DNA of 64,000 bases. It comes from Flavobacteriales bacterium BRH_c54. GTDB lineage: Bacteria; Bacteroidota; Bacteroidia; Flavobacteriales_E; Vicingaceae. Numbering within the stretch: the stretch's first letter is position 1; the number at the start of each line of letters is the position of its first letter. This document shows, piece after piece, positions 20,220 through 23,038 of the stretch. Made by a program: the position numbers and the translations under genes. The stretch spans positions 1-64,000 of the forward strand of contig LADZ01000060.1 in the NCBI GenBank assembly GCA_000961845.1, in the 5' to 3' direction. Below the pieces are notes generated by a model, which ran no database searches, was not told the origin of the DNA, and was given only the letters and a program-made list of their open reading frames with translations.

Positions 20220-20339
20220 GGTTTCATGTTTGAAGTTTGAGGTTTCCGTCATTGCAAACGAAGCAACGTGTAGTAAAGCAATCTACTTATCATGAACCAA
20301 TTACCTTTTAAACTTCTAAACTCATAAACTATAAAATAA
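20220..20339. repeat. Intergenic dispersed repeats, including a degenerate CGTCATTGC...GAAGCAA element
   Basis: The gap opens with ATGTTTGAAGTTTGAGGTTT, matching words near 2820 and (as complement) 6510. At 20247-20284 CGTCATTGC, ACGAAGCAA and AAAGCAATCT give a degenerate copy of a dispersed element of the CGTCATTGCGAGG...GAAGCAATCT type that I recall from several bacterial genomes including Bacteroidota. AAACTTCTAAACTCATAAAC follows and again resembles the gap near 6540. Confidence 0.5.
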
Positions 20340-20459
20340 ATGAGCAATCAACTTCCTCCATTTTTTAAATCATGGAAAGGCTTCTACTTTTTTGTAGTAG
20401 GTTTTTTAGTTTTTTTAATCGTTGTTTTTCAACTGATAACTTCCTACTATAAACCATGA
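20340..20459 (+). CDS. Small membrane protein coupled to the SSS transporter
   Basis: A 39-residue ORF (MSNQLPPFFKSWKGFYFFVV ... ending SYYKP) too short for most gene finders. Residues about 14-34 form one strongly hydrophobic segment (FYFFVVGFLVFLIVVFQL) with a Lys/Trp-containing cytoplasmic-looking start and a Tyr/Lys end. Its stop codon overlaps the symporter start (ATGA at 20456-20459), so it should be translated with it. Small single- or double-span partners precede other solute symporters (DUF485 and DUF4212 types); this one has no recognisable family, and the subunit role is inferred from coupling. Confidence 0.72.
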   Translation: MSNQLPPFFKSWKGFYFFVVGFLVFLIVVFQLITSYYKP

Positions 20460-22180
20460 GCAGTATAGATTGGATAGTATTACTCGGAACACTCGGTTTC
20501 ATTGCCATTTATGGTGCGTGGAAAACCCGTAAAAGCCAAAACATTGAAGGTTATCTTAAAGGAGATAGCGATATGAAATGGGCTACCATCGGACTTTCTG
20601 TAATGGCTACCCAAGCCAGTGCCATCACTTTTATTTCTACTCCCGGACAAGCTTATGAGTCGGGAATGGGTTTTGTCCAAAATTATTTGGGCTTACCCAT
20701 CGCCCTTATTATTGTTTCTGCAGTTTTTATTCCTATTTACTACAAACTAAAAGTATATACCGCCTACGAATATTTAGAAACCCGTTTTGGTGTTGAAAGT
20801 AGGTTACTTGCTGCTTCTCTTTTTCTTATTCAACGTGGATTAGCAGCCGGAATAACCATTTATGCTCCTGCCATTATTATTGCCACCGCTTTAGGTTGGC
20901 AACTCGATATTACCATTTTATTAATTGGCGCATTGGTAATTGTTTATACCGTTTCGGGAGGAACAAAAGCAGTTAGCCTTACCCAAAAATGGCAAATGGC
21001 AGTAATTATGGGCGGAATGTTCATCGCTTTTTTCATTATTATTTTCAATTTGCCCGAAAATGTTTCTTTTGGTGAGGCTGTTTCCATTGCCGGAATGATG
21101 GATAAAATGAATGTAATTGATTTTTCATTAGACATTGATAAACGCTATACTTTTTGGACAGGCATTACAGGAGGTACTTTCCTTGCCCTCTCCTATTTTG
21201 GTACCGACCAATCGCAAGTGCAACGTTATTTAAGCGGAAAATCCGTTTATGAAAGCAGAATGGGATTAATGTTCAATGCCTTACTGAAAATTCCTATGCA
21301 GTTTTTTATTCTGTTTGTAGGAATCATGGTTTTTGTATTTTTTCAATTTCAAGAACACCGAATTTTATTTAACCAAACAAGTTTAGACCAAGCTTACCAA
21401 ACGGAATATGCTGGGGAGCTTAAAACCATTGAAGATGAATACCAAGTAGTTTTTAATGAAAAAAAACAATATTTAGAACAAATAAGCACCTCTACCAACC
21501 AAAGTGAAATTGACCAAGCGGTAGCACTGGCTCAACAAAAAGACAAACAAGAAAATGAGCTGAAAAACCAAGCCAAAGCGGTAGTCTTAAAAGCTGTTCC
21601 AGAAAGTGTTTCTAAAGATTCCGATTATATTTTTCTATCCTTTATTATGAACTATATGCCCATAGGTTTAATCGGTTTGTTGTTGGCGGTAATATTTTCT
21701 GCAGCCATGTCGAGCACTGCCGGAGAGCTAAATGCCTTGGCTTCTACCAGTACCATAGATTTTTATAAACGCTTATCAAGCACTTCGGCACAAGCTAGCG
21801 ACAGAAAAATGGTCATCATTTCTAAATTGTTTACCGCCTTTTGGGGAATGATAGCCATTGGTTTTGCTTTGTTTGCCCAACTGCTCGAAAACCTTATTGA
21901 AGCGGTAAATATTTTAGGTTCTATTTTTTATGGAACTATTTTAGGTATTTTCTTAGTGGCTTTTTTCATTAATAAAATTAAAGGAAAGTCCACATTTATT
22001 GCAGCTATAATTGCCCAATCTGCTGTAATTATTTTGCACTTTTTCGGACAAGATATTTTCTCTTACCTCCTTCAAACACCTGTTAAAGAAGTTGGCTACT
22101 TGTGGTACAATGTTATTGGCTGTGGTTTAGTTATCGGATTCGCTGCTTTGTTGCAAATGGTGATTAAGAAGAAAGAATAA
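20456..22180 (+). CDS. Sodium:solute symporter (SSS/SLC5 family)
   Basis: 574 residues, about 13 membrane segments. Family marks are GYLKGDSDMKWATIGLSVMATQ, SAITFISTPGQAYESG, YEYLETRFG, the sodium-site region GGTFLALSYFGTDQSQVQRYLSG, and SAAMSSTAGELNALASTSTIDFYKR. Between two membrane segments, about residues 300-375, sits a polar insert rich in Glu/Gln/Lys that looks like a coiled coil (LKTIEDEYQVVFNEKKQYLE, QQKDKQENELKNQAK). Such inserts are seen in some Bacteroidota SSS proteins. The substrate (sugar, sialic acid or other) cannot be read. It overlaps the 39-residue membrane gene by four bases. Confidence 0.88.
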   Translation: MSSIDWIVLLGTLGFIAIYGAWKTRKSQNIEGYLKGDSDMKWATIGLSVMATQASAITFISTPGQAYESGMGFVQNYLGLPIALIIVSAVFIPIYYKLKVYTAYEYLETRFGVESRLLAASLFLIQRGLAAGITIYAPAIIIATALGWQLDITILLIGALVIVYTVSGGTKAVSLTQKWQMAVIMGGMFIAFFIIIFNLPENVSFGEAVSIAGMMDKMNVIDFSLDIDKRYTFWTGITGGTFLALSYFGTDQSQVQRYLSGKSVYESRMGLMFNALLKIPMQFFILFVGIMVFVFFQFQEHRILFNQTSLDQAYQTEYAGELKTIEDEYQVVFNEKKQYLEQISTSTNQSEIDQAVALAQQKDKQENELKNQAKAVVLKAVPESVSKDSDYIFLSFIMNYMPIGLIGLLLAVIFSAAMSSTAGELNALASTSTIDFYKRLSSTSAQASDRKMVIISKLFTAFWGMIAIGFALFAQLLENLIEAVNILGSIFYGTILGIFLVAFFINKIKGKSTFIAAIIAQSAVIILHFFGQDIFSYLLQTPVKEVGYLWYNVIGCGLVIGFAALLQMVIKKKE

Positions 22181-22213: not shown

Positions 22214-23038
22214 TCAGTTCGACTTTTTCATTTTCCTTATCACTTTCTTTTTTCTTGTATTTTTAGTAGTTGTTTGCTCTAAACTATCTTTCATTTTTTT
22301 AATATCTGCTGTTTTGGGAAAGTTATCAAGTTTTAAAGTAAAATCGAAAAATCTAGAATCAGATAGTTTGTTTATTTCTTGAAGAAATAGTTCAGGATGT
22401 TGAAGAATAATCATTTCCAAGCTTTTCAAATCATAATGACAATTATTAAATGTTTCAAGAAAAGATGAAATCATATTTGAATCTACAAGTAGTTGGGCAT
22501 TATTCAATTTCTGAAACCTTTCTTCTTTCTTTGCTTTTATTGACTTAATAATTGATAAAAGCCTTTCTTTTAATTCATTTTCATCGGTTTTGTATTCATC
22601 AAAACATTTTGCAGAAAAAACATTAATTCGATTACTGTCTGTATATCTAATGTCATTAAATTCTTTATTATCATAGCCTATTTCTTCTCTTGCTATCTCA
22701 TCAATTTCAAACCGCATTTTCCAATAAGAAGCACTATTCCTTATTTGGTTAACTAAAGAGTCGCAAATATTATACTTATTGATAACTATTTTTTTATTTA
22801 ATTCCAGCTTCAAAAGCATTTTAACATAATCTTCTTTATTTACTTTTCCTGTCTTTTTGAGCCAAAATCGTTGTTTGAAATGAGTGTATTCCTCTTTAAT
22901 AAGGCCATCATTTTCATTAAAGTAAATATCATATTTAACAATTAACTTTGGATAATACACCACTAAAACCGAATCTCCTTGTGCCGAAAGAGTACAACAA
23001 ATAAAATAAAGTACTATGGAACTAATTATTTTTTTCAT
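22214..23038 (-). CDS. Secreted protein of unknown function
   Basis: 274 residues with a signal peptide (MKKIISSIVLYFICCTLSAQ). The body is charged and helical; it ends in a Lys/Arg-rich tail (TTKNTRKKKVIRKMKKSN). I recognise no domain. The local base use is even more AT-rich than its neighbours, which fits a recent lineage-specific gene. It stands alone, converging with the symporter gene and divergent from the E1 gene across 301 bases. Confidence 0.6.
   Translation of the reverse strand: MKKIISSIVLYFICCTLSAQGDSVLVVYYPKLIVKYDIYFNENDGLIKEEYTHFKQRFWLKKTGKVNKEDYVKMLLKLELNKKIVINKYNICDSLVNQIRNSASYWKMRFEIDEIAREEIGYDNKEFNDIRYTDSNRINVFSAKCFDEYKTDENELKERLLSIIKSIKAKKEERFQKLNNAQLLVDSNMISSFLETFNNCHYDLKSLEMIILQHPELFLQEINKLSDSRFFDFTLKLDNFPKTADIKKMKDSLEQTTTKNTRKKKVIRKMKKSN

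Follow-up and report, generated by a model that had tools for sequence, protein, structure and literature searches.

The question raised by this locus is whether a 39-residue open reading frame lying directly ahead of a sodium:solute symporter (SSS) gene in Flavobacteriales bacterium BRH_c54 encodes a protein in its own right, and what such a protein would do for the transporter. The window, which is the whole stretch of DNA analysed, comprised 64,000 nucleotides, and the features of the locus within it were as follows.

20340 to 20459, forward strand: gene for a small membrane protein of 39 aa with a single predicted helix (evidence: open reading frame, homologues and pN/pS).
20379 to 20444, forward strand: predicted transmembrane helix, residues ~14-35 of the small protein (evidence: read-through models and conservation periodicity).
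20456 to 20459, forward strand: ATGA in which the stop of the small gene overlaps the start of the symporter gene (evidence: sequence).
20456 to 22180, forward strand: sodium:solute symporter (SSS), 574 aa (evidence: PF00474 and TIGR00813).
21368 to 21619, forward strand: long helical insertion, symporter residues ~305-388, absent from the aligned SMCT1.

The open reading frame translated as MSNQLPPFFKSWKGFYFFVVGFLVFLIVVFQLITSYYKP*. The initial annotation had described a 39-residue frame ending in an ATGA that overlaps the symporter ATG, and this was borne out exactly at 20340-20459, with the TGA stop of the small gene at 20457-20459 and the ATG of the symporter at 20456-20458. The small-protein family ranged from 31 to 59 aa in length. 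Among 154 distinct homologues, a +4 stop/start overlap (ATGA, GTGA or TTGA) was found in 84, while the small gene ended no more than ~15 nt from the SSS start in 142. As homologues occupy the equivalent position in distant genomes, the frame is not a chance one. The usual tight coupling is broken in two loci (L013 and L067), where ~190 nt of a repeat-like sequence set the small gene apart from the symporter. The intergenic stretch 5' of the small gene in the window (20220-20339) was strongly unlike that of close relatives; it is a repeat-like sequence present in a single copy genome-wide, and the relatives L033 and L035 carry a different hairpin-like sequence there.

The first search used the 39 residues alone as query against 198 genomes of the class and matched short open frames in many families. 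Twenty-nine loci from other genomes were fetched (L004-L032), and a same-clade SSS gene lay downstream in all of them except L030 (contig edge) and L032. A profile of the small protein gave a match directly upstream of SSS in 79 of the 80 named loci, the sole exception being L056, where the contig starts within the symporter. The gene was present in Myxococcus xanthus (L045) and a second Myxococcus (L068), as well as in three MAGs labelled Deltaproteobacteria, Myxococcales and Verrucomicrobia (L064, L079 and L096, respectively), labels which may be wrong.

SSS scores in 247 phylum-wide genomes separated the clade (at least 515 bits) from the rest (at most 246 bits), and 60 clade members were fetched together with 20 SSS genes of other clades. 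The profile search found the small gene at E < 0.01 in 50 of the 60 clade members; it was weak yet recognisable upstream of the symporter in L133, L169 and L181, and an unrelated-looking single-helix frame stood at its place in L177 and L180. There was no upstream match at any of the 20 SSS genes of other clades (0/20) or at the other SSS genes of the BRH_c54 genome (0/3), and a hydrophobic 43-residue frame near one of the controls (L187) did not match the profile. A weak second match in the BRH_c54 genome (G000:C67) contained a stop and was taken as chance. No relative was found in the plasmid collection. Judged from these genome sequences, the small gene is kept beside one SSS branch across most Bacteroidota and in Myxococcota.

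The downstream gene scored 131 bits (E=7e-38) against PF00474, for which the curated Pfam cut-off is 22.8, and 219.4 bits against TIGR00813 (cut-off 184). The symporter was alignable by sequence to SMCT1, SiaT and NIS, and its TM8-type serine-rich stretch aligned with SMCT1 in the sequence alignment. The model of a relative (L046) showed the LeuT-type SSS fold, the nearest solved structure being SiaT (5nva), matched over 470 residues with a Z of 45 at 2.3 A. The insertion was located from the alignment, where profile positions 276-396 stand against residues 285-327 of SMCT1, and in the L046 model it formed two helices (355-380 and 384-412), for which pLDDT was mostly high. At ~80 residues, and modelled in L046 as a long hairpin of helices, this insertion may be a hallmark of the symporter clade. 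On the 3' side of the symporter, a 274-aa frame on the reverse strand (22214-23038) had no significant Pfam match, and gene calling in the close relative L033 gave none of similar size at the matching place.

Selection on the small gene was assessed from 24 independent pairs, which gave a pooled, uncorrected pN/pS of 0.20 with synonymous sites near saturation; between the window and L034, dS was 1.17 and dN 0.06. By these codon comparisons, the small gene is under purifying selection. The family motif was PP(F/I/L)..sW...Y..V...L...I..F(Y)..T..(F/Y). Within 131 non-redundant sequences, the tryptophan (W12 in the window) was invariant where present (129/129), and the tyrosine (Y16 in the window) occurred in 129. 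Conservation along the helix had a period of 100-102 degrees per residue (permutation p <= 0.0008), which indicates that one helix face is constrained; the conserved positions included W12 and Y16, with the face extending to Y37. Lysine and arginine were commoner before the helix (2.7 in 16 residues) than after it (0.6 in 5), which suggests a cytoplasmic N-terminus.

AlphaFold was run on read-through constructs of two loci (L046 and L109) in which the small-gene stop, being in frame with the symporter, was read as glycine; unpaired small proteins were left out of the L046/L109 alignment because they were misaligned. The SSS fold was well predicted in both models, and the small protein formed one helix in each (residues 7-32 in L046 and 13-35 in L109), with a pLDDT of ~60 and a placement on the transporter that carries no confidence. 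Mutual information between the small protein and the symporter was dominated by phylogeny (a Flavobacteriaceae signature).

Scans of 45 members of the small-protein family against Pfam and NCBIfam gave scattered chance-level scores and no match. The initial annotation had remarked that the protein is matched by neither DUF485 nor DUF4212, and this proved true of every one of the 45; the family is unnamed as judged from Pfam and NCBIfam. No description of it was found in the literature searched, which was of partial coverage and took in few subscription journals and preprints.

These observations are best read as the initial annotation had tentatively read them, as an uncharacterised accessory subunit. 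The small gene is coding, co-localised with the symporter gene, and linked to one SSS branch while absent from other SSS branches; the selection at the protein level, the conserved face of the single predicted helix, and the retention of the gene apart from the symporter (described below) also back this reading. The small protein is thus probably a subunit with a single helix whose role is to stabilise or activate the adjacent SSS symporter, analogous to MAP17 on SGLT2. We infer its topology, binding and stabilising action, and the substrate of the pair, as follows. The small protein would be translated immediately ahead of the symporter, with ribosomes probably re-initiating at the ATGA overlap. 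It would be a single-pass inner-membrane protein, probably oriented so that the N-terminus, the end richer in K/R, is cytoplasmic and the C-terminus lies outside, and its one conserved face would pack against the exterior of the transporter. Such packing would stabilise the fold or the scaffold helices of the symporter and so keep the transporter stably present and active, as with MAP17 and SGLT2.

The small protein might instead bind the symporter as a negative regulator, or as an adaptor or protector in proteolysis, in the manner of MgtR, MntS and MgtU. Among small transmembrane proteins of bacteria whose transporter targets are known, most are regulators or proteolysis adaptors or protectors (PMC10710835), and all of the genomic evidence for association fits this role as well; however, a co-translation fixed across nearly the whole clade would better suit a stoichiometric subunit, and we regard the regulatory role as rather unlikely.

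An accessory subunit of the symporter must also be weighed against the gene on the other side. Enough upstream sequence was available in 73 loci, and in 60 of them the small gene was preceded, mostly within ~25 nt, by a gene for a large protein that has a PIG-L domain and a signal-peptide-like start. Most relatives (L033-L112) carry a tight cluster of a PIG-L-type deacetylase, the small protein and the SSS. This usual third gene had been missed in the initial annotation. The BRH_c54 homologue of the deacetylase lies on another contig (G000:C23:1823-4246), so the small gene and SSS pair of the window is separated from it. The frequency of the upstream deacetylase, together with one genome (G108) in which the small gene follows the deacetylase and the symporter lies elsewhere, would fit a small protein whose real partner is the deacetylase, for instance by anchoring it to the membrane, with the symporter link reflecting operon structure only. 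Such a partnership is nevertheless improbable, as no deacetylase was detected upstream in the other 13 of the 73 loci or in the window, where the small gene and symporter pair is intact, and there was no deacetylase match in G238, which keeps a good small gene, or in G326, which keeps a weak one. Since the pair persists without the deacetylase, the partner is more likely to be the symporter. The pair follows a deacetylase with a signal-peptide-like start in most relatives, and our guess from this gene neighbourhood is that the cargo would likely be a product of de-N-acetylation, such as an amino-sugar compound, made outside the cytoplasm.

Four sampled genomes from two lineages (L153, and L171-L173 of one genus) carried the symporter but no small gene that could be detected, and in these the deacetylase gene ran directly into the symporter or adjoined it. 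A quick tree built on 133 N-terminal columns, which is poorly resolved and backs losses in outline only, set the clade and other SSS apart and placed the absences among carriers. Relatives whose symporter lacks a frame at this place had been named in the initial annotation as grounds for refutation, and they do occur in these four genomes; as they are nested among carriers and their deacetylase abuts the symporter, they look like lineage-specific losses. The small gene is accordingly not strictly obligatory and is dispensable in some lineages, which counts against an accessory subunit. Also weighing against the subunit are the low-confidence helix of the two AlphaFold models, the phylogeny-dominated mutual information, and G108, where the small gene has remained next to the deacetylase and the symporter, on another contig, has no small gene. 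In G238, the small gene stands 14.6 kb from the symporter. Retention apart from the symporter in these two genomes argues that the small protein acts in trans and that the frame is not a mere leader. That its translation, and not its product, sets symporter expression is very improbable: the stop/start overlap common among the homologues favours such a leader, but the amino acids themselves are selected, as seen in the pN/pS and the conserved W and Y, and the gene persists at a distance from the symporter in G108 and G238.

Work on sodium symporters of the SSS superfamily usually treats them as single proteins. A partner of 31-59 residues kept almost throughout a clade suggests that symporter activity there depends on a second subunit, so that the symporter expressed alone could fail or mislead. 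In broader terms, there is about an even chance that the small proteins form a new family of subunits, co-inherited with one SSS branch (Bacteroidota, some Myxococcota and Verrucomicrobiota), that is the bacterial counterpart of SGLT-MAP17 and belongs to an uptake module in which the compound taken up is produced by the deacetylase outside the cytoplasm. A bacterial system would be a simple testbed for the control of an SSS transporter by a single helix, which is still discussed for SGLT2/MAP17, and the neighbouring deacetylase is a concrete clue to the symporter substrate.

Several known systems resemble this arrangement. DUF485 (YjcH) with the acetate permease ActP is likewise a small membrane protein encoded beside an SSS gene. 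DUF485 proteins have ~100 aa and two transmembrane helices, whereas the small protein has 31-59 aa and one predicted helix, with no profile match in the 45 members. DUF4212, the sodium symporter small subunit found with the VC_2705 family, is likewise encoded directly upstream of SSS and has two helices. The small protein differs in having no match to its profile, and the partner symporter scored 33 bits against the VC_2705 model, far under the cut-off of 320.75. MetS, the short subunit of the MetPS methionine transporter, has a single helix and serves a sodium symporter with the LeuT fold, and so shares with the small protein its shortness, its single helix and its sodium-symporter setting; unlike the small protein, it has a partner from the NSS family, and no profile match linked the two.

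MAP17 (PDZK1IP1) of human SGLT1/SGLT2 differs from the small protein in being eukaryotic and has longer soluble tails. No homology to it was seen, either in the Pfam scan of the 45 members or in the profile search of solved chains, where no MAP17 chain was returned. The resemblance is one of arrangement only: MAP17, an essential auxiliary subunit, sets its one helix against TM13 of SGLT2 (PMC10803289), and the small protein would similarly pair one predicted transmembrane helix with one SSS/SLC5 transporter.
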